A stretch of DNA of 32,567 nt from a virus, in the IMG/VR virus record IMGVR_UViG_3300025314_000342, positions 1 to 32,567 of that record; one strand, written 5' to 3'. The first letter of the stretch is position 1. Every line of letters begins with the position of its first letter. This document shows positions 4,731-32,567 of the stretch, one piece after another. A program made the position numbers and the translations under genes. Under the pieces are notes generated by a model, which saw only the letters and a list, made by a program, of their open reading frames with translations, ran no database searches and was not told where the DNA came from.

Positions 4731-5381
4731 ATGCCTAATGTTGGGGACATAAAACGTGGTGATAAGTCCCAACTATATGTTTATCACGCTTGTATTGATT
4801 GTAGCAAGGAACGTTGGGTACAGTATGTAAAAAGTAATGCAGTACACCTCAAATGTGCTTCTTGTTCCAAGATAGGTAGAGTTCAGTCGGAAGAAACTAA
4901 ATTGAAGCGGGCAATTAGTAATACAGGTAAAAAGAGAACTGTTGAAACAAGAAGTAAAATTAGTTGTGCTGTTATGGGGTTAAAACGAACACCAGAATAT
5001 GTTCAGTGGTGGATGGATAATGTTAAGTCTAGACAGGGTGTGGGCGATAAATCTCCCCATTGGAAAGGTGGTAGGACACCATTGTGTCAAATGATAAGGA
5101 CTTCTAAAAAGTATGACAGATGGAGAACAGATGTCTTTAACAGAGACAACTTTACATGCGTAAAGTGTGGATATAAAGGAAACAGATTACACGCACACCA
5201 TAAGAAGGCGTTTGCTGTGATATTGGATAACAATAATATTACTACATATGATGAGGCAATGATGTGCGAAGAATTATGGGACGTGAGTAATGGACAAACT
5301 CTTTGTTCAGATGTTTGTCACGACCACGAGCATGGAGGAAAGGTATCAGGATGGAAACGAAGAATGATTTCGCAGGTTTGA
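4731..5381 (+). CDS. HNH homing endonuclease with NUMOD3 DNA-binding motif
   Basis: The protein is 216 residues and starts on the base after the preceding stop, with AAAGGA just upstream. Its order is an N-terminal Cys4 ribbon (ACIDCSK, CASCSK), a NUMOD3-type DNA-binding repeat (SEETKLKRAISNTGKKRT then VETRSKISCAVMGLKRTPE), and a C-terminal HNH nuclease domain. The HNH core reads FTCVKCGYKGNRLHAHHKKAF, with the second half in SNGQTLCSDVCHDHEH. The HH pair and the CxxC / CxxxC metal ligands look intact. This architecture is typical of phage homing endonucleases. Its 3' end overlaps the start of the next small gene by 31 nt, which suggests that the insertion was accommodated without breaking that gene. 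Confidence 0.88.
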   Translation: MPNVGDIKRGDKSQLYVYHACIDCSKERWVQYVKSNAVHLKCASCSKIGRVQSEETKLKRAISNTGKKRTVETRSKISCAVMGLKRTPEYVQWWMDNVKSRQGVGDKSPHWKGGRTPLCQMIRTSKKYDRWRTDVFNRDNFTCVKCGYKGNRLHAHHKKAFAVILDNNNITTYDEAMMCEELWDVSNGQTLCSDVCHDHEHGGKVSGWKRRMISQV

Positions 5382-5581
5382 CGGAGCTAGAGATAGTTCG
5401 TCTGATTCAGAAGAAAAAGAAGAGATATTGTGCAATCGCACTAAACGATATTGAAGAAGAGATAAACGACCCTGAATTGTTCAAGAAGATAAGGAAGATT
5501 TTCCTTGATAACATGAATAGTTTTACTAGGAGTATGTTCACGGTAGTGGGCATTCAGGTAGAGGGTATCGAGGAAGAGTAG
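5351..5581 (+). CDS. small hypothetical protein, virion module
   Basis: The protein is 76 residues, acidic and helical (IEEEINDPELFKKIRKIF). ATG 5351 is chosen because a longer in-frame start at 5303 would extend deep into the HNH gene without support; GGAGG lies at 5334-5338. I do not recognise the family. It lies between two HNH genes and probably belongs to the original head-neck gene set. TAG at 5579-5581 overlaps the GTG of the next gene (TAGTG). Confidence 0.6.
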   Translation: METKNDFAGLTELEIVRLIQKKKKRYCAIALNDIEEEINDPELFKKIRKIFLDNMNSFTRSMFTVVGIQVEGIEEE

Positions 5582-6060
5582 TGGAACAGTTTACCAAGAC
5601 TTGCACCAAATGTGGTCAAGCAAAAACTGTTGACTTGTTTTGCAAAGACAACACCAAGAAGGACAAATTAGCGTGTTGGTGTAAAGAATGTCAATCTACT
5701 AGAGCAAAGACTTGGTGGGGTACTCATAGAGAGTTTATTTTACCAGGACTTAGGTTGAATTCTCCAATTAAAAGACTGGAACAAAAAACACGAGTCTTAC
5801 TTCACTACGGTAATGGTAACTTAGCGTGTACTAATTGTGGTGAAACCGATATTAGGTGCTTGTCTATTGACCATGTAGATAATAATGGTGGTATGCATAG
5901 GAAGGACTCTACTATTGCTAGTTCCAATATGTATTATTGGTTGGAGAAAAATAATTACCCCGAAGGATACCGAACTTTGTGCATGAACTGCCAATTTAAG
6001 AAGTCTTTTCAGGTTAATGGTTACGGAGCAAAGTATGTGGGGTCCGAAGTTTACACATAA
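5581..6060 (+). CDS. HNH endonuclease
   Basis: The protein is 159 residues from GTG 5581, with one base shared with the preceding stop. The N-terminal Cys4 ribbon (CTKCGQA, CWCKEC) is followed by a phage-type HNH domain: ACTNCGETDIRCLSIDHVDNN, then YYWLEKNNYPEGYRTLCMNC. The D-H pair in SIDHVDNN and the CxxC pairs are intact. The YPEGYRTLCMNC ending is characteristic of phage HNH enzymes. It overlaps the next gene by 26 nt. A role in homing is inferred from family and context; other HNH roles in phages (packaging-associated nuclease) are less likely at this position. Confidence 0.85.
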   Translation: MEQFTKTCTKCGQAKTVDLFCKDNTKKDKLACWCKECQSTRAKTWWGTHREFILPGLRLNSPIKRLEQKTRVLLHYGNGNLACTNCGETDIRCLSIDHVDNNGGMHRKDSTIASSNMYYWLEKNNYPEGYRTLCMNCQFKKSFQVNGYGAKYVGSEVYT

Positions 6061-9168: not shown

Positions 9169-9861
9169 ATGAGTAAACTTTCAAAATTATTTAGATGGTC
9201 TAGAAAAATAGACATCAAAGACGGTGAAAAGGTTCTTGATACGGTCTATCTTAGACTGGTTGGCGACAACGATTATCAAGAATCAAGGGATATGGCTCTG
9301 AAACACAGTAAGATGATGCGTGTGGCACTAAGAAATAAGGACAGTGCAGAACACAAGTCAAATTTTGGTGACATTGATTCCTTGACAAAGGATGAGATGA
9401 TTATGGGCATCACTATTGGTGAGTTGTCTAACTATAGGGATGAAGCACTAATGAATCTCCCTGAAAAGGACAAACCTGAACTTCCTGATAATGCTACTTT
9501 GGAGCAACAGGAATTATTTGATGCCCAGGTAAAGAAAACAAGGGAAGATAGGGTTCAGTCAATCGCAGACTATATCGAAAAGAAGTCTGAAGAGAGAAAA
9601 ACTGAACTTCTGAAGATAGAGGATATTGTTCAGATAAAATCTTTGTATGTTACCTCTGTCATAAACATTAGATGTGAGGAAGAGTTCACCAAAACATTCA
9701 GAGAGTATCAGATATACAAAGGTACGTTTAAGGATGAGGTAATGACTGAACTCGCTTTTGACTCATTTGATGAGTTCTTAAATAGTGCTCCACAGTTGAA
9801 GTCACTGTTAATGTCTGCTTATATAAATCTGGAACTCACTGGGGAAGACTTAAAAAACTAG
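9169..9861 (+). CDS. tail assembly chaperone, upstream (G-like) part
   Basis: The protein is 230 residues in the zero frame. It is highly charged and helical, with a Lys/Glu-rich central coiled-coil region (SIADYIEKKSEERKTELLK). It ends at TAG 9859-9861, directly after the slippery sequence. Position immediately before the tape measure gene and the -1 frameshift signal identify it as the G-type chaperone that binds tape measure protein and recruits tube subunits. A three-codon ATG-GAA-TGA at 9164-9172 overlaps the start codon (ATGA) and may couple translation; AGAGAGG provides the ribosome site. Frameshifting would yield a fusion of about 327 residues with the downstream part. Confidence 0.8.
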   Translation: MSKLSKLFRWSRKIDIKDGEKVLDTVYLRLVGDNDYQESRDMALKHSKMMRVALRNKDSAEHKSNFGDIDSLTKDEMIMGITIGELSNYRDEALMNLPEKDKPELPDNATLEQQELFDAQVKKTREDRVQSIADYIEKKSEERKTELLKIEDIVQIKSLYVTSVINIRCEEEFTKTFREYQIYKGTFKDEVMTELAFDSFDEFLNSAPQLKSLLMSAYINLELTGEDLKN

Positions 9862-9899: not shown

Positions 9900-10151
9900 A
9901 AAGACTTGAAATACCCTCTTCACAGTAGTCTTAGACATATTGATGTGTCAGAGTATCCTTACACCATAAATTTCGTGATAAAGAAGAGGATGCAGATAGA
10001 CTCGTACTTTGAGTTACCAGAAGAAAAAAGACCTCCAAGAAGCATTTGGGATTATCCTTCTAAACTTACAGAGTGGTTTGAAAATGCTTTTTCAGACGGT
10101 AAGAAACAGAATGAATTTACACTACCTGTTGATGAAGAAAAGATAGAGTAG
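9858..10151 (+). CDS. tail assembly chaperone, frameshift extension (T-like) part
   Basis: This frame is entered by the -1 shift at 9852-9858 and adds 97 residues to the upstream protein. The extension contains VKDLKYPLHSSLRHIDVSEY and ends in the acidic FTLPVDEEKIE. A GTG at 9879 lies in frame but has no convincing ribosome site (the stretch before it is not AGGAG-like), so independent translation is unlikely. In the lambda G/GT system the T part contacts the tube protein; the same role is inferred here. TMP translation starts 11 nt downstream. Confidence 0.8.
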   Translation, partial: LAEDNAFVGVWRIVKDLKYPLHSSLRHIDVSEYPYTINFVIKKRMQIDSYFELPEEKRPPRSIWDYPSKLTEWFENAFSDGKKQNEFTLPVDEEKIE

Positions 10152-16060: not shown

Positions 16061-18571
16061 ATGGCAACAGTAATTTGGTTTATAGATGCACCTAAGAATG
16101 ATACAGCAGGTGGCTACCTTATGTATAAGGAGCACGATGTTGATGTAGAAGCAGTCTACACATCCAATAGTGCCTTTTATCTTGGCTTCAAATGTCAGAA
16201 GAACTGGTTTTTCCCTCTAGATTTGATTTCTGACCACTATGAAGCTTATTCATACCATTCTTACCTTAAATTCAAGTTGCCTACAACCGCAAGTGGTACA
16301 CTAACTAAGGCTGAATTGATAATTAGACTTGGTAACGCTGGCATGATTATGAATGTTAATCCTATTTACATGGATATTGACATTTACCACAGAGAAGTGT
16401 ACAATGCTTCGGAATTCCCTTGGGCTACTCTCAACGATGATGATTATCCTTCTGGAAGTTGGCACAACGATGGTACAAAGATAGAGAACTTTTATCAGAT
16501 GTGGGCAGATTTCTTGGTTGACGGTCCACATTGGTTACCTGCCGTTGAAGTAACAACTGGCGTTGCTGAGGCAATCAGTAATGGATGGGAATGGGCGGCA
16601 TTCCTATTGACACCTAACTATTCTACACCTCTTGACTGGGATTATGATGAGAGACCTACTGCATATAACCAAGAGATGTGGCTTGGATTTTTCGGTGCTG
16701 TTAATCCTTATTGGGTAGACAAACCTGATTCAGACTATCCATATACTTCTGCACCTGCATGTCCTTGGTTAAAACTAACCTACTCTGGTGGTACAACTCA
16801 GTACGTCCCAGGTGAAGATGTTACCGAAGCTGGCGAAGGTTCTGCAATAAAGTGTGTTGCCGCAGACCCTAAAGCACAGATGGCAATCATCGGGTGTGAA
16901 TCTGGTAGTTTGTGGTATACTTGGAGCGGTGGTAGACAGTACAGTAAGATGTATGAAGCTGACTCTTCAATTACTGCTGTATACACAGACCATGTTCGTA
17001 ATTTCTTGGATTACCCAGGTGATGAAATATCCTGGTTTGGAACAGTAAGCGGTAAGTTATATAGAAGTTTGAACTCATTGTCAACATTCAGTTTGATGAC
17101 TACTTTTGGTGGTTCAATTGTTGAAATAAGAGGTAGTCATTTAACATCTGATAAGGTTGTTGTTGGTATCAATGGTAGTGACGGAACACATGGTTACATA
17201 TATACTACTGTAAATGGTGGTACAAGTTGGAGACTAGCTAAGACCGCAAACGCACCTTTTACTGGCATGTTTGTTCGTGGTGACGAAATACAAACAGTAT
17301 TTAGTGGTGCTGTATCTAGAAGTCCTAACTGGGGTGTAACGTGGTATGATATGATTGGTGACTCATCAACATTTATAGATGTTGGTTTTGACATCCTAAA
17401 CAATCAGAATATAGTGGTTGGTGGTAGTGATGGACAACTATACATATTCTCTGGTGCTGTTGGTGAAGCATATCATCTAAAACCAGGTGCTACTGTATCT
17501 GGTATTGTTACACAAATAGACACCGACTGGGAATCACAGGTTGCCGTTATTGCTACAAATGCTAGATTATACAAAACGACAAGTTGGGGTAGTGATGTGC
17601 TTGAATTGCTCAATCAACCTATCATTGACGTTGCTATTGGTGGTAATGCTCTTGCTATTTATGAACTACCTGACGTTAGTGGCTACGCATTGATGCCTAA
17701 TGGTGATTATAGTGTATCATGGTCGTGTTGTATTGATAGTGTTGGTTGCGGTCAGCCAGGTCCAGCATATAGTTATATTGATGACGATGGCACAGACGAT
17801 AGGTATTTGCACTCTATAGATGGACCACCTTGGAGTGATTGGCATAATGCTATATTCTATCACGAAACATTGGTAGCTAGTGGTTATGATGTAGAATTTA
17901 TTGTTAACAAGGTTTGTCACCGAGACCCAGGTGGTGGAGCGAGTATGCGGTGGATTATACGTTATGGTGGAACTAACTATTATCATAGTGCCGGTACAAG
18001 TAGCGAATCATATGCCTCAGTTATAAACCCTGCTACCTCTACTAAATGGACTGTTGCCTCATTCAATAGTGCTCTACTTGGATTTAGCGAGATGAGTTCA
18101 TCTGTACCTTATGGTTATATGCACCTTGACTCTTTTACTTTCCGAGCATTCGTCAAAAAGAGTGAATTCTTGATGATGGGTAGTGCTCCCGTAAACAGGG
18201 GTGGTGGTCTTGGTAAAACTTTTGTAAACACAGCAGACCCATCAGATATGAATGGTTATGTCAATTATGTGGAGTTCTATGTACAGAACACATGTAACGT
18301 GTCAATTGGTACTTGTTACCAAGTAAGTACAAACCACTACACTGTTCGTGACTACAGGTCATTAGGTTCTTTTGCTCCAGGTCTGCATAAGATATATGTT
18401 GCTCTTGAGGTTAAGGTTGGAGATTTTTTGACAATAAGTGGTAATATATCAATATCTACGTCATTTAATACTGGTAACGTTTCTACTTCCACTTCTGCCA
18501 TACCTTATACAAATGAACTTTTTGTGGCGAACTCATATGTAGCATCTTTCATTGGTGTGGGGTATAGATAA
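16061..18571 (+). CDS. large tail protein with Asp-box (BNR-like) propeller repeats
   Basis: The protein is 836 residues and begins on the base after the preceding stop. Residues about 60-100 (SYHSYLKFKLPTTASG then LTKAELIIRLGN) resemble a DNRLRE-type beta-sandwich. From about residue 260 to 520 there are repeated strands with Asp-box-like turns, notably TVNGGTSW and SPNWGVTW, plus GCESGSLWYTW, GTVSGKLYRS, GGSDGQLYIFS and ATNARLYKTTS. That pattern predicts a beta-propeller of BNR type. The C-terminal third is beta-rich with several Cys. No sialidase catalytic set is apparent, so receptor or glycan binding is more likely than hydrolysis. TAATG overlap links it to the tail fibre gene. Confidence 0.6.
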   Translation: MATVIWFIDAPKNDTAGGYLMYKEHDVDVEAVYTSNSAFYLGFKCQKNWFFPLDLISDHYEAYSYHSYLKFKLPTTASGTLTKAELIIRLGNAGMIMNVNPIYMDIDIYHREVYNASEFPWATLNDDDYPSGSWHNDGTKIENFYQMWADFLVDGPHWLPAVEVTTGVAEAISNGWEWAAFLLTPNYSTPLDWDYDERPTAYNQEMWLGFFGAVNPYWVDKPDSDYPYTSAPACPWLKLTYSGGTTQYVPGEDVTEAGEGSAIKCVAADPKAQMAIIGCESGSLWYTWSGGRQYSKMYEADSSITAVYTDHVRNFLDYPGDEISWFGTVSGKLYRSLNSLSTFSLMTTFGGSIVEIRGSHLTSDKVVVGINGSDGTHGYIYTTVNGGTSWRLAKTANAPFTGMFVRGDEIQTVFSGAVSRSPNWGVTWYDMIGDSSTFIDVGFDILNNQNIVVGGSDGQLYIFSGAVGEAYHLKPGATVSGIVTQIDTDWESQVAVIATNARLYKTTSWGSDVLELLNQPIIDVAIGGNALAIYELPDVSGYALMPNGDYSVSWSCCIDSVGCGQPGPAYSYIDDDGTDDRYLHSIDGPPWSDWHNAIFYHETLVASGYDVEFIVNKVCHRDPGGGASMRWIIRYGGTNYYHSAGTSSESYASVINPATSTKWTVASFNSALLGFSEMSSSVPYGYMHLDSFTFRAFVKKSEFLMMGSAPVNRGGGLGKTFVNTADPSDMNGYVNYVEFYVQNTCNVSIGTCYQVSTNHYTVRDYRSLGSFAPGLHKIYVALEVKVGDFLTISGNISISTSFNTGNVSTSTSAIPYTNELFVANSYVASFIGVGYR

Positions 18572-21207
18572 TGCCTATTACTAAGCGTGAAGCAAAAGAA
18601 ATTGTAGATTGGGTAGTAAGTGAACTACACAGAAAAGGTTTCTTATATCTTACTGATGGTAAGGTTGACTTATCTAAAGTAAGAGTGGGAACTATATCTG
18701 GTACTGCCTCTTTGGGTGGACGTATTTCTGATGGTGCTATTTGGAATAGGCACGTAGCTGAAGACGCCGACATACGAGGAACTAAGGTAAGAATTGCTAC
18801 CACAAGTGAGAGGGGTACTGTTGAACTTGCTGAAGACCTAGAGATTGCTTCTAGTAAAGCTGTTCAAGCTAATGACGCTAGATTACATAGTATCACTGTT
18901 GCCAACGCTACAGAACACGATGCAAGATACTATTGTTTTGACTCAGAAACAGAGTTATTGACTACTAGTGGTTGGAAGCATTATCAACAATTAAACAAGG
19001 GAGAGGGGGTATTTAGTCTTAATTTATTAAATAGTGTGATAGAACAAGACCAAATAAATGGTATTTATCTATATGATTATGATGGTATCCTACAGCACTT
19101 TAATAGCGAGTCTGTTGATATTTTGGTAACACCTGACCATCGTATTGTTGGTTCTATTCATACTAAACAGAAATATTATCTTAACGGTGGTTGGAAAGTA
19201 TTATCTGCTAAGGATTGGTGTGCGAAGAATACTGACATTGTTTTACCCGTAGCTGGTATCTATATTGGTGATTGTTCCCTAAATGATGACCTATTTGAGT
19301 TGCTTGGATGGTTTATAGGTGATGGCGGAATACAGTCTGAGTGTATACAATTATACCAGAAAGAGGGAATAAAATCATCTAGAATACAATATTTACTAGA
19401 TAAACTAAAAATACCTTATTCTATTTATCGTGGTAAGCAGGTAAAAAATGGTTCGTATTTAACATTTAGAATCAATGTTGAAAATAGTAAGTCTTTACTA
19501 CCACTATTTAAGAAAGACTTGTCAGGTATAAATATTCTACCATCAAAAGAAATATTTGATAGATTATTGTATGGACTGATTGAGTCTGATGGTTCTAGGA
19601 ACAATGACACCTCATTTAGGTTTTATCAAAAAGACAGGGTGGTAGTAGATAAAGTTCAATATTTATGTACTCTGTATGGTTATGGTTCTCGTTTACATCG
19701 TGGACACCCAACCGTAGACAATGTGTTAAATATCGTCAATAGGTCTTATACCCACTTAACTCCTAAAAACTTCTCAACCGAGTACTATAAGGGTGTGGTT
19801 TGGTGCGTTAATGTCAACAATGGTACTGTTATTATCAGAAGAAATGGAAAGGTTTCTATCGTAGGTAATACCGAGGCAGAACTCAATGCTGGTCAACTTG
19901 ATACTCGTTACTTTACCGAAACAGAGTTAAGCAGTCAGTGGGGCGCTGACTTAATTGGTATCTCTAATCCTTCTGGTTATTGGGTTGGTGATAGTGTACA
20001 AAACGCTCTTGATGAACTATACAAGCGTAAGTTCAAGTCTTTGTCTGACGTACCTAACGATTATGCTGGTTATGCTGGACAGGTTGTTGCTGTAAGAGCA
20101 ACCGAAGACGGTCTTGAGTTTGTTATTCCAAGTGGTGGTGGTGCTTCTACGTTCCTTGGTCTTGATGACACACCTAGTTCATATGCTGGTCAACAGGGTA
20201 AAGCGGTAGTTGTTAATGCATCAGAAGATGGTGTAGAGTTCATTCTTATCAGTGGAGCGACAACGAGTGGTGGTGGTAGTGATTTCAATCCTGATAGAAT
20301 GTTCAGTTTTGTACCTGAATTTCCTAACGCAATCTTATTTGCTGACGGAGTTACTAACAGTGGTACACTAATCCTTGATTATGATGAGGGACATAACTTC
20401 TATGATTGGACAACTCTGGAAGCAATGGCACAGGATTACGACATCTATTTGAAGTTCTTGATTCCACCAGACCTTAATACTATGGGTAGTGGTATCTATA
20501 TCTGGAATAAATCTGACCCATCTGTTAACACTGGTGTGCGTCTTGTTGAATTTCTTGATAGTGTTGGTGCTAATCTTATTACTGATTCGTTGGCTCAAAG
20601 TAGTGCTTGGACAGAATCATTTTGGGAGCTTTCTGGTGGTACTTGGTATGTCAATACATTGGCAACATTGCACTTTAAGATGCAATCTGACCCATATTAT
20701 CATGCTAGAATTGGAGAAGTAAGACTTCCTTATGTCGTAAAGCAACTTACTACTTCAGTGTTCTCATTTGTTCCAGAGTTCGATGGCTTTATTACTGAAG
20801 CGGTAACTGGTACTAACACTGGCACAATGACTGGTGTATACGATAGTGGACATAATGGATTCAAGTGGACTAACGCTGAGGTATTAACTCAGGATTATGA
20901 CGTTGTAGTAAGATTCAGAATTCCACCTAACTTTACAGCGATGGGTGGTACTTTGTATATGTATAATAAGGTATCAAGTACGTTTGGTAGCACTGGCGTA
21001 AGGTTGGTTGAGCTACTTGATACAAACGGTGTTAATGTGATTACAGCTAATACCAAGAAGAATGCTACTTGGACTGAGAGTACATATGCAATTGGTGCGG
21101 GTACTTGGGAGACTGGTAAATTGGCAACATTAAGATTTAGATTGTTCGCAGATATTGGTGAATCTGCATATCTTGGTGAGGTAAGAATTACCTACACGAC
21201 AGACTAG
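18571..21207 (+). CDS. tail fibre protein, interrupted by an intein
   Basis: The precursor is 878 residues; removing the intein (residues 122-433) leaves a 566-residue fibre. The N-terminal extein has a helical start (REAKEIVDWVVSELHRKGF) and the pattern GTVELAEDLEIASSKAVQANDARL typical of tail-fibre shafts. The junction reads DARYY then TEAELN, a motif repeated as DTRYFTETEL 10 residues later. Two short repeats (YAGYAGQVVAVRATEDGLEF; YAGQQGKAVVVNASEDGVEF) follow, then two copies of a domain of about 150 residues starting FSFVPEF at residues 578 and 731. It is probably a trimeric host-binding fibre. The start ATG overlaps the preceding stop by one base. Confidence 0.8.
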   Translation: MPITKREAKEIVDWVVSELHRKGFLYLTDGKVDLSKVRVGTISGTASLGGRISDGAIWNRHVAEDADIRGTKVRIATTSERGTVELAEDLEIASSKAVQANDARLHSITVANATEHDARYYCFDSETELLTTSGWKHYQQLNKGEGVFSLNLLNSVIEQDQINGIYLYDYDGILQHFNSESVDILVTPDHRIVGSIHTKQKYYLNGGWKVLSAKDWCAKNTDIVLPVAGIYIGDCSLNDDLFELLGWFIGDGGIQSECIQLYQKEGIKSSRIQYLLDKLKIPYSIYRGKQVKNGSYLTFRINVENSKSLLPLFKKDLSGINILPSKEIFDRLLYGLIESDGSRNNDTSFRFYQKDRVVVDKVQYLCTLYGYGSRLHRGHPTVDNVLNIVNRSYTHLTPKNFSTEYYKGVVWCVNVNNGTVIIRRNGKVSIVGNTEAELNAGQLDTRYFTETELSSQWGADLIGISNPSGYWVGDSVQNALDELYKRKFKSLSDVPNDYAGYAGQVVAVRATEDGLEFVIPSGGGASTFLGLDDTPSSYAGQQGKAVVVNASEDGVEFILISGATTSGGGSDFNPDRMFSFVPEFPNAILFADGVTNSGTLILDYDEGHNFYDWTTLEAMAQDYDIYLKFLIPPDLNTMGSGIYIWNKSDPSVNTGVRLVEFLDSVGANLITDSLAQSSAWTESFWELSGGTWYVNTLATLHFKMQSDPYYHARIGEVRLPYVVKQLTTSVFSFVPEFDGFITEAVTGTNTGTMTGVYDSGHNGFKWTNAEVLTQDYDVVVRFRIPPNFTAMGGTLYMYNKVSSTFGSTGVRLVELLDTNGVNVITANTKKNATWTESTYAIGAGTWETGKLATLRFRLFADIGESAYLGEVRITYTTD
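18934..19869 (+). mobile_element. LAGLIDADG intein in the tail fibre gene (312 residues)
   Basis: This is a self-splicing protein element. Block A begins with C122 (CFDSETELLTTSGWK). Block B has T187-P-D-H190 (VTPDHRIVG). The endonuclease has both DOD motifs, LLGWFIGDG with D251 and LLYGLIESDG with D340. Block F contains VVWCVNV, with Cys412 at the usual Asp position, and the element ends KVSIVGN with N433. The first C-extein residue is T434. The boundaries are precise because deletion rejoins DARYY to TEAEL, matching the nearby DTRYFTETEL copy. The penultimate residue is Gly instead of the usual His. Cys1 is present and the class 3 Trp/Thr positions are not, so it is a class 1 intein. Splicing and cutting both look possible. 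Confidence 0.92.
20302..21204 (+). repeat. tandem duplicated fibre domain (two copies of about 150 residues)
   Basis: Copy 1 starts at 20302 and copy 2 at 20761, both with FSFVPEF. Shared landmarks in order are NSGTL/NTGTM, GHNFYDWT/GHNGFKWT, QDYDI/QDYDV, FLIPPDLNTMG/FRIPPNFTAMG, TGVRLVEFLD/TGVRLVELLD, AWTES/TWTES, LATLHF/LATLRF and GEVRL/GEVRI. The copies have diverged substantially, so the duplication is old. Each copy is probably a beta-sandwich receptor-binding module. Confidence 0.75.
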
Positions 21208-30129: not shown

Positions 30130-30298
30130 TGAATTAGAACTAACTGAATATGATATAAATATCAGTAGAATACTCAAGAAAACATCCAAAAACAAGCAAA
30201 AATTAAAGGAAGCAAAAAGGTGGCGTAGTAAGACCTATCGCCAAAGGAAACAGGGTAGATTTATATTCAGGAGAGGAACGAGTAGTGGAGATAATTAA
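30092..30298 (+). CDS. small basic hypothetical protein
   Basis: The protein is 68 residues, very basic (LKKTSKNKQKLKEAKRW, YRQRKQGRFIFRRG). ATG 30092 lies 38 nt inside the end of the nuclease gene; a GGAAGAG stretch upstream could serve it. No family is recognised. The charge suggests nucleic-acid binding. The stop overlaps the GTG of thyX region by 14 nt. Confidence 0.5.
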   Translation: MSKRSKERQNLTDELELTEYDINISRILKKTSKNKQKLKEAKRWRSKTYRQRKQGRFIFRRGTSSGDN

Positions 30299-30875
30299 CG
30301 CATCGGTTACCATAGAAGACCCAATTGACGAGTTGGCAATTCTCACCAAACTTGAGAAAGCTGGTAGAACAGCATACAAGTCAGAGGATAGGATTACGAA
30401 AGGTTCGGCGGAGAAATTCATTCGTGGTATTATTAAGTCAGGACATGGTAGCGTTCTGGAACATGTATACCTCACAGTGAAATTCATTGTTGATAGAGGT
30501 GTGACCCACGAATTAGTCAGACATAGGATAGCATCCTATACACAGGAATCAACCAGATATTGTAACTATAGTAAGAAAGGTGTCGTGTTCATTCGACCAC
30601 CTTGGGATTTCACCGAATCAGACCTCGATTTTCTAGAGTTGGTTGAGAAACAATACAACAAGAAAATTGCTGAAGGTCAGACACCACAGCAAGCGAGAGC
30701 GTATCTTCCCAACTGTTTGAAGACTGAAATAGTTACTACAATGAACATTCGGGAGTGGAGACATGTTCTTGGTTTGAGAACGAAACCAGATTGTCATCCA
30801 CAAATGAGAGAAATAATGAGTATGCTTCTAGCAGAGTTCAAGCAGAAGCTACCAGTTTTGTTTGAGGACATATAA
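30285..30875 (+). CDS. thyX: FAD-dependent thymidylate synthase ThyX
   Basis: The protein is 196 residues and converts dUMP to dTMP with methylene-tetrahydrofolate, FAD and NADPH. The signature RHRX7S is present: R79-H80-R81 and S89 in RHRIASYTQESTR. Flanking motifs match (HGSVLEHVYLTVKFIVDRG; EIVTTMNIREWRHVLGLRT; CHPQMREIM). The start is GTG 30285, with AGGAGAGG about 8 nt upstream. It supplies thymidine nucleotides during replication and sits in the replication operon as expected. It is slightly shorter than typical bacterial ThyX, as many phage versions are. Confidence 0.95.
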   Translation: MEIINASVTIEDPIDELAILTKLEKAGRTAYKSEDRITKGSAEKFIRGIIKSGHGSVLEHVYLTVKFIVDRGVTHELVRHRIASYTQESTRYCNYSKKGVVFIRPPWDFTESDLDFLELVEKQYNKKIAEGQTPQQARAYLPNCLKTEIVTTMNIREWRHVLGLRTKPDCHPQMREIMSMLLAEFKQKLPVLFEDI

Positions 30876-30890
30876 TATGGAGAATAACCC

Positions 30891-31292
30891 ATGAGCGTGA
30901 GAGTTACTAAAGCTTTACGTGAAGCGAAGAAACAAATTGAGCAAGCGAATTATCCTAATGTCACAGGTGTAGGCATAGGGTACAAGAGAATAGACGGAAA
31001 ATCTACTAAAGAGCTTGTTGTGGTTGTTTTTGTTAATAGAAAACTAGGTAAGAAAGACCTATCTATTGATTCGGTTATACCAAAGGAAGTTGTCACGACA
31101 GATGGCAACATACAGACAGATGTAGTTCAGAGTGGTGAGTTTGCAGTAGCTCGTTTAGACGGTTTACTCACAGAATTATGTGAGAGGAAAAGACCCATCG
31201 CTCCAGGTTATTCTGTAGGACATCCAGATGTAAGTGCTGGTACTATAGGTTTAATCGTAAAAAAACCACAGACGGCAAGCTTTGCATACTAA
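30891..31292 (+). CDS. trypsin-like serine protease, N-terminal part (frame broken at A7)
   Basis: ATG 30891 follows GGAG by 8 nt. The zero frame gives 133 residues, with NVTGVGIGYK, VVVVFVNRKLGKKDL and SVGHPDVSAGTIGLIV, motifs of bacterial trypsin-like (S1-type) proteases that begin with this domain. After GLIVKK the zero frame becomes nonsense and stops at 31290. The -1 frame continues with TDGKLCILSNNHVLANINRA, exactly the expected sequence. Joining the two frames at the A7 run (31259-31265) gives a protein of about 316 residues. Without the shift, this part lacks all catalytic residues. Whether this is programmed, a mutation or a homopolymer error is open. Confidence 0.7.
   Translation: MSVRVTKALREAKKQIEQANYPNVTGVGIGYKRIDGKSTKELVVVVFVNRKLGKKDLSIDSVIPKEVVTTDGNIQTDVVQSGEFAVARLDGLLTELCERKRPIAPGYSVGHPDVSAGTIGLIVKKPQTASFAY
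31259..31265 (+). other. A7 slippery run joining the two protease frames
   Basis: The zero-frame codons are GTA AAA AAA CCA, so the seven A form a classical -1 heptamer A AAA AAA in the right phase. A one-base slip back (or one extra A in DNA or mRNA) leads to ACC ACA GAC and the downstream frame. Only a weak hairpin (around 31275-31287) lies downstream; no clear stimulatory structure is seen. Confidence 0.6.
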
Positions 31293-31840
31293 GTAATAAC
31301 CATGTTTTGGCTAATATAAATCGAGCCAAAATTGGTGACCCTATCAGACAACCTGGCTGTTATGACAAAGGAACAGAAAAGGATATTGTTGCCCATTTGG
31401 ATAGTTTCTACCCGATACACATTATAAAACGTGGTAGACGCAATCTACTTGGTGAGAATCGCAACCTGTGTGATTGTGCTATTGCAACTATAGATGAAGG
31501 AATTAAATTTTCTGAGATGGTTGAAAATATAGGAAAACCGACTGGTACTATAAACGGAAGACTTGGTATGAAGGTTCGTAAACTAGGACGAACTACAGGA
31601 TACACCGAAGGAGAAATAATCGCAGTATCAACTACGGTTAAACTCAAAGTCGGTTCAGGGGTTGCCGTCTTTTCTGACCAATTAGTTGCTAGTAAAATGT
31701 GTGAAGAAGGAGATTCAGGTGCGGCTGTGTTTGATAGAGGGACAAAAGTAGTCGGTTTGCTTTTTGCAAGTGGACATGAGGTTTCCCTGATAAACAAAGT
31801 AACAAACATATTTGACGCACTGAAGATTGAGTTACCTTGA
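31265..31840 (+). CDS. trypsin-like serine protease, catalytic part (-1 frame)
   Basis: This frame carries the catalytic residues of an S1-type protease: His in LSNNHVLAN (codon 31301-31303), Asp in NLCDCAIATID (31472-31474) and Ser in EEGDSGAAVFD (31715-31717). GMKVRKLGRTTGYTEGEI and SDQLVASKMC are other family-typical stretches. No good start codon precedes the His. The first in-frame start-like codon, TTG 31307, falls after the His and has no ribosome site, so independent translation would give an inactive product. The active enzyme therefore needs the upstream frame. Its target is unknown; phage protein processing or a host-directed role are both possible. The stop overlaps the next TTG. 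Confidence 0.7.
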   Translation, partial: TTDGKLCILSNNHVLANINRAKIGDPIRQPGCYDKGTEKDIVAHLDSFYPIHIIKRGRRNLLGENRNLCDCAIATIDEGIKFSEMVENIGKPTGTINGRLGMKVRKLGRTTGYTEGEIIAVSTTVKLKVGSGVAVFSDQLVASKMCEEGDSGAAVFDRGTKVVGLLFASGHEVSLINKVTNIFDALKIELP

Positions 31841-32037
31841 AAAATCGTTTCTATAAACTATTTACCAAAGAAGAAATACCTAACAGTAATGAAAGAAGAG
31901 CCGTAAACTGCTTCTATGCTGACATGGTTAAATGCAATGAACGCATAGAGAAGAGATGCAAGAGAGAACTTTATGGCTTATGGATTAACTGCCCAAAACA
32001 AACTGGTAAAAGATACAAAGGAGAAGAGGTTAAATAA
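31837..32037 (+). CDS. small basic hypothetical protein
   Basis: The protein is 66 residues from TTG 31837, which overlaps the protease stop (TTGA); the ribosome site is weak. It has several Lys/Arg and four Cys spread along the chain (VNCFYADMVKCNER, EKRCKREL, INCPKQTG), which could bind zinc. No family is recognised. TAATG at its end overlaps the next gene by one base. Confidence 0.5.
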   Translation: MKNRFYKLFTKEEIPNSNERRAVNCFYADMVKCNERIEKRCKRELYGLWINCPKQTGKRYKGEEVK

Positions 32038-32567
32038 TGATTGATTGGACTTTTGATAAGTCAAAGCGACTAACAGAACTTGTCTGTGACCCTGAAAGGT
32101 ACAGTGAGAGTAAAATCGCTGAGATTATGACGGATGAATTTGGTGAGGACTTTACTAGGGATGCTGTTCATAATAAAATTACACGTCTAGATGCTAGGTC
32201 GCTTCTGGATAGACCAATAACAGACATAATGCCATACTATACAAAGTATAAGGACATTATTCAAAGTGATGATGCTGTCGAGAAAAGGTTTGAGATAAAA
32301 CCAAATCAGATGGTTGTGGAGATTCCAAAAGAGAACCTAAAGATTCTTCATCTTGGTGACCCACATATTCCGTTCCAGCATGATGAGCAAATACAAACCG
32401 CAATGAATCGTAATGCATCTGCGGATATTGTAGTGACAACCGAGGTAATGGATTGTTATTCCATATCACGGTTCAATAAGAACTTGAGCATTCCTTTCGA
32501 AGTCGAGGTAGATAATACGGTTAGATACTTCGAAACATTGAGCGAGAACTTCCCATTGACTATTGTT
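32037..32567 (+). CDS. metallophosphoesterase-like protein with N-terminal helical domain (partial)
   Basis: The frame from ATG 32037 (GGAGAAGAGG upstream) stays open to the window edge, 177 codons so far. The N-terminal 60 residues look like a helix-turn-helix (SESKIAEIMTDEFGED, AVHNKITRL). From about residue 100 a calcineurin-like core begins: ILHLGDPHIPFQHDEQI supplies motif I (D-x-H). Motif II is normally G-D-x-x-D but reads TTEVMD here. CYSISRFNKN and ETLSENFPLTIV match the phage branch of this family. The remaining metal-binding motifs lie beyond the window. The altered motif II may mean reduced or changed metal binding. Confidence 0.7.
   Translation, partial: MIDWTFDKSKRLTELVCDPERYSESKIAEIMTDEFGEDFTRDAVHNKITRLDARSLLDRPITDIMPYYTKYKDIIQSDDAVEKRFEIKPNQMVVEIPKENLKILHLGDPHIPFQHDEQIQTAMNRNASADIVVTTEVMDCYSISRFNKNLSIPFEVEVDNTVRYFETLSENFPLTIV

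Follow-up and report, generated by a model that had tools for sequence, protein, structure and literature searches.

A NAL1-like protease gene in a phage record is very probably split by a private one-base homopolymer contraction, not by a conserved programmed frameshift

Does a trypsin-like serine protease gene that changes reading frame at a run of seven adenines encode a switchable enzyme, or has a base been lost from it? The question is raised by a virus record of 32,567 bases, referred to here as the window, in which plus-strand frames at 30891–31265 and 31265–31840 carry complementary parts of one protease. The 133-aa zero-frame ORF (30891–31292) comprises a NAL1-type N-terminal domain and the initial barrel strands of the protease. 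It ends in ...GLIVKKPQTASFAY*, with its stop beginning at 31290, and its final eight residues (PQTASFAY) lie outside the homology. The homology join of the two parts falls on the A7 run at 31259–31265 (plus strand), where the zero-frame codons GTA AAA AAA place A_AAA_AAA in the phase for −1 slippage. Reading base 31265 twice gives TTDGKLCILSNNHVLAN..., which continues to 31840 as 191 codons and a stop, encodes the catalytic domain (His138, Asp195 and Ser276 in fusion numbering) and completes a fusion of 316 residues. This second frame has no stop in its 191 codons, an intact triad and a normal codon-position composition. Between 31184 and its stop at 31838–31840 the −1 frame is open, and it overlaps the zero frame by 106 nt, within which A_AAA_AAA is the sole slip-phase X_XXY_YYZ heptamer. 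The original prediction of one S1-type protease divided between two adjacent frames, joined on an A7 run in slip phase, with a 133-residue zero-frame product and a fusion of about 316 residues, is borne out by these coordinates and by a single ortholog to which both parts align consecutively, without a change of frame. The same match rules out a chance overlap of two unrelated ORFs.

By its sequence matches, and only with the frames joined, the region encodes one NAL1-like trypsin-fold protease, predicted to consist of an N-terminal NAL1_N domain and a trypsin-fold domain. The fusion matches rice NAL1 structures in the PDB at about 4e-8 by sequence. In Pfam, the read-through protein matched Nal1_C above the cutoff (2.2e-6) and NAL1_N (6.6e-5) and Trypsin_2 (6.7e-4) below it; the zero-frame ORF searched against PF25608 NAL1_N gave 1.5e-5, just under the cutoff. 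The match to phrog_20754, a family of phages and archaeal viruses annotated as protease, spans residues 17–314 (9e-59) and is thus full-length, the difference being that these relatives cross the join in one frame. A putative serine protease of Alphaspiravirus yamagawaense matches fusion residues 13–281. NAL1 itself (NARROW LEAF 1; PDB 7y77, 8has, 8pmg and others) is a plant trypsin-like serine protease with the same order of NAL1_N and then trypsin-fold domain; unlike NAL1, the present protein is phage-borne and shorter, and its frame is broken in the window record.

The predicted structure of the intact phage ortholog has a mean pLDDT of 91, and its best PDB match is NAL1 (E 3.5e-15), with which structure alignment gives about 19% identity, TM-scores of about 0.5 and a high rmsd, the domain arrangement not being superposed. 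The barrel of this model taken alone matches alpha-lytic protease and streptogrisin B, and the intact enzyme is probably an intracellular serine protease. On the ortholog model, the break maps to the hairpin turn between strands 112–116 and 119–124, just before the catalytic His, which places it inside the first predicted barrel and not at a domain border.

The His-Asp-Ser triad is present in HV, D-A and GDSG contexts, and its codons (His138 at 31301–31303, Asp195 at 31472 and Ser276 at 31715) all lie in the second frame. H138, D195 and G274-D275-S276-G277 are invariant in an 8-sequence alignment, and the matching residues are invariant in a 40-sequence alignment. The triad had been said to lie wholly in the second frame, upstream of any credible start. 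Its assignment to that frame stands, and the His138 codon does precede every ATG, GTG and TTG there, but TTG 31307 precedes both Asp195 and Ser276, and ATG 31517 precedes Ser276. A restart in the second frame could therefore give a product lacking His only, or both His and Asp; the mechanical ORF from the TTG (31307–31840, plus strand, 177 aa) would be without the catalytic His. The full triad is found in no single-frame product.

Relatives of the protease were found by profile. Searching the viral contigs directly with the fused protein, or with the helicase alone, returned no relatives, and a DNA search of phage records gave no matches. Eight distant relatives made too diverse a profile for searching; one built from three sequences recovered the NAL1-like family in 58 viral contigs. 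The remark that trypsin-like proteases are uncommon in phage replication operons needs qualifying in view of this number. A scan of genomes gave 571 confirmed matches, of which the best 80 were retained; choosing by score tends to keep intact genes, and no such trimming was applied to the viral set.

The best viral match, locus L010, lies in the 152.8-kb contig G001. Most genes of the window, from its first kilobases to its last gene, match G001 in synteny and in one frame each. The protease of G001 occupies the same slot in a single frame and is about 50% identical; the two parts of the window protease are 57% and 52% identical to it and alike in codon-position composition. Its junction codons are ATT GTG CTG TGT GAT GGT GAA CTG, with no A run. 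An intact single-frame relative without the A7, named beforehand as evidence against a switch, is therefore what this syntenic ortholog provides.

The wider family agrees. Among 146 relatives, in which the genome loci are the best 80 of 571, no gene is interrupted at this position: in 145 the match crosses the junction in one frame, and the remaining one, L061, carries about 60 additional residues in this turn and likewise reads through in one frame without a stop. At the junction, the longest A run ranges from 2 to 8 across the relatives, and A8 is unbroken in L015, L106, L113 and L158. Paired lysine codons occur at this turn in 20 of 145 relatives. Because adjacent lysine codons recur there, a homopolymer at the turn is expected of normal coding. 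The extra residues of L061 (1141–2250) indicate that the turn tolerates changes in length; L011 is likewise longer in this hairpin turn, by about 25 residues near position 10001, and the frame is kept in both. Among viral relatives only L050 is split; the division falls in the linker between the domains, and the protease ORF starts with an ATG of its own. Among the genome relatives, the N-domain of L128 contains an in-frame stop, in a contig of about 3× coverage.

Folding of the RNA around the run was also considered. The 60 nt after the A7 have an MFE of −5.1 kcal/mol, and 90% of the window's 60-mers fold as well or better. There is no stem at 5–9 nt downstream of the run, the sole good hairpin beginning about 33 nt after it. 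The 100-nt downstream fold has a z of −1.98, and 18% of the genome's 100-mers fold as well; being common in the genome and too far from the run, this structure was dropped as a stimulator. Upstream there is only a weak AGG, about 10 nt away. The protease A7 resembles the dnaX- and IS-type A_AAA_AAG and A_AAA_AAA cassettes in heptamer class and phase, but unlike them has no stem close downstream, no evident Shine-Dalgarno stimulator and no conservation. Some proven frameshift sites have no established stimulator (PMC4066793).

The phage itself supplies a control for the protease A7. Its tail assembly chaperone pair, located just before the tape measure gene, consists of a frame at 9169–9861 and a −1 frame to 10151, joined at TTA AAA AAC TAG, with the A_AAA_AAC slip site at 9852–9858 (plus strand) followed by TAG. 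What the protease locus has in common with the gpG/gpGT tail assembly chaperone −1 frameshift of dsDNA phages is an A-rich −1 heptamer where two overlapping frames meet. Across the three phages of this group (the window, G001 and a 71-kb sister contig, G002), the chaperone heptamer A_AAA_AAC and its TAG do not vary, although the proteins here are only 53–73% identical, and the phage very probably uses this site. A used slip site in this phage group is thus strictly conserved. The protease A7 does not look so: unlike the chaperone site, which is kept in three phages, it is found in one record only.

We consider it very likely that a private one-base homopolymer contraction, arising from recent mutation or from faulty base calling or assembly, splits this NAL1-like protease gene, and that the split is not a conserved programmed frameshift. 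The contraction is favoured because the syntenic ortholog in G001 is whole in one frame without an A run, because the break is private to one record and lies inside a homopolymer while its homologs are intact, because the A7 ranks among the window's four longest homopolymers, where an indel of this kind would be expected, and because there is no near stem and a genuine −1 site of these phages is kept without change. In this explanation, the A run of lysine codons at the β-hairpin turn ahead of the catalytic His would have lost one base, either when the record was called or assembled or, not long ago, by slipped-strand mutation of the phage itself. Should the loss be real, the 133-aa zero-frame product would be without any catalytic residue, and active enzyme would arise only via adventitious −1 slippage on the A7; we infer both this indel origin and the leaky expression. 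A mutation or an undercalled A, which the original prediction had put forward as an equally serious alternative, is thereby favoured. Between the two, the evidence tilts slightly toward error, based on the expectation from a GeneTack analysis that homolog-validated frame breaks seen in one sequence are sequencing errors and not genuine indels (PMC3711429). Counting against an error in the record, most other window genes that were compared are collinear with their relatives in one frame, and the possibility that the record is corrupt in general was rejected for the same reason. A pattern scan of contigs found no near-identical contigs with a variable A-run length. Counting against the contraction are the clean second frame, for which a functional frameshift, an error and a very recent mutation would look alike, and the fact that only two close relatives are known, one of them with the gene.

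A genuine recent indel with leaky expression, a 'savior' indel that would lower the dose of protease and leave slight enzyme via slippage on the A7, forms part of the contraction explanation and is by itself rather unlikely. Homopolymers are indel-prone, compensatory frameshifting of indels has been described (PMC5009743), and slippage on A7 is measurable in E. coli, where a 7-A cassette gave 10% frameshifting (PMC3711429), so that some active protease could still arise if the allele is real. The absence of the gene from G002 also counts in its favour. However, such an allele would look the same as a plain error.

The switchable protease of the original prediction would require that programmed −1 frameshifting at A_AAA_AAA set the ratio between the 133-aa N-terminal product and the full protease, and in its lineage-specific form that the enzyme be rationed, with an excess of inactive N-terminal product and active enzyme at a few percent. 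The heptamer is in phase exactly at the homology join and is the only one in the overlap, the second frame is intact, a weak AGG lies upstream, 7-A sites shift in E. coli (PMC3711429) and A_AAA_AAC is very probably in use elsewhere in the phage. Free-standing N-domain ORFs beside the protease (in L050, L091 and L099) further suggest that the family may include N-domain products made separately. These points are outweighed by the absence of both the heptamer and the break from the closest, syntenic relative and of the break from every relative examined (genome loci being the best 80 of 571), by the lack of a stem at 5–9 nt and a 100-nt fold that is unremarkable for the genome, and by a zero-frame product that would end in a hairpin turn inside the first barrel, not at a domain border. 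The switch did not hold up, and we regard it as improbable in either form. A natural fission into two separately translated, assembling proteins, the second started internally, is more improbable still. L050 is split at the inter-domain linker with a separate ATG for its protease ORF, and free-standing N-domain ORFs stand beside full proteases in L091 and L099, but in the window the barrel itself is interrupted, and the first possible start, TTG 31307, comes after the catalytic His, so that a restart product would lack that residue.

Upstream, the protease slot is flanked by ThyX (30285–30875, plus strand; PF02511 5e-46; 79% identical to G002). Downstream are a small gene in a stop-to-stop frame (31831–32036, plus strand), conserved in both sister phages at 61–63% identity, and a gene that runs off the window end (32037–32567, plus strand), 76% and 68% identical to genes of G001 and G002, respectively, and phosphoesterase-like by eye from GDPHIPF, GNHDKR and SHTH motifs in the full G001 protein. 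G002 has the same operon with a 72-aa ORF where the protease would be, and no protease was found elsewhere in that contig. Because this sister contig is without it, the protease looks accessory, and we take it to be an accessory gene of a tailed phage, in its operon for replication and nucleotide metabolism. The thymidylate synthase at this one operon position is also swapped: it is ThyX in the window and in G002 (L071:12000–12617), and ThyA-like in G001 (L010:9339–9986; PF00303 3e-9).

Intein-like and homing-endonuclease-like sequences also occur in the window. A tail-fibre-like ORF (18571–21207) carries an intein-like insert at residues ~122–433 (CFDSETELL...SIVGN; LAGLIDADG_3 1.9e-9), and the insert stretch has no match in G002/L071. 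Homing-endonuclease-like ORFs lie between structural genes at 115–585, 4731–5381 and 5581–6060, with matches to LAGLIDADG_1 (1e-18) and NUMOD3 (5e-5) and one HNH-like by eye.

Within the protease family, intein-like insertions are located directly after the catalytic-His motif in two phage proteases, L056:8606–10690 and L064:9995–11239, both with LAGLIDADG_3. In L056 the insertion is of about 348 residues (SNNHVLAA|CFDDETEVL...IWSGN|SNDASVGD), and in L064 (SNNHVLGN|CLDEETEVL...) it runs off the locus. Free-standing N-domain-like ORFs (L091:259–519, L099:2962–3258, L128:3122–3409 and L050:10007–10237) adjoin full, split or stop-bearing protease genes; that of L091 matches PF25608 NAL1_N above the cutoff (3.2e-7), and a separate regulator or inhibitor is a possible role for these products. 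On Rhizobium plasmids (L004:322–3903 and L006:1–2861), a radical SAM protein and a HEXXH-motif putative peptide modification protein are encoded ahead of a NAL1-like gene, and on other plasmids the match lies inside a protein annotated as a DNA/RNA non-specific endonuclease.

One candidate recoding switch is struck from the list by this analysis, which also illustrates a cheap test: a slip site under suspicion is compared with another of the same phage that is conserved. The intein-like insertions and the recurrent small N-domain genes are more interesting than the frame break. For the family, the analysis indicates that phage replication operons carry NAL1-like proteases as accessory genes, a group widespread in viral contigs.
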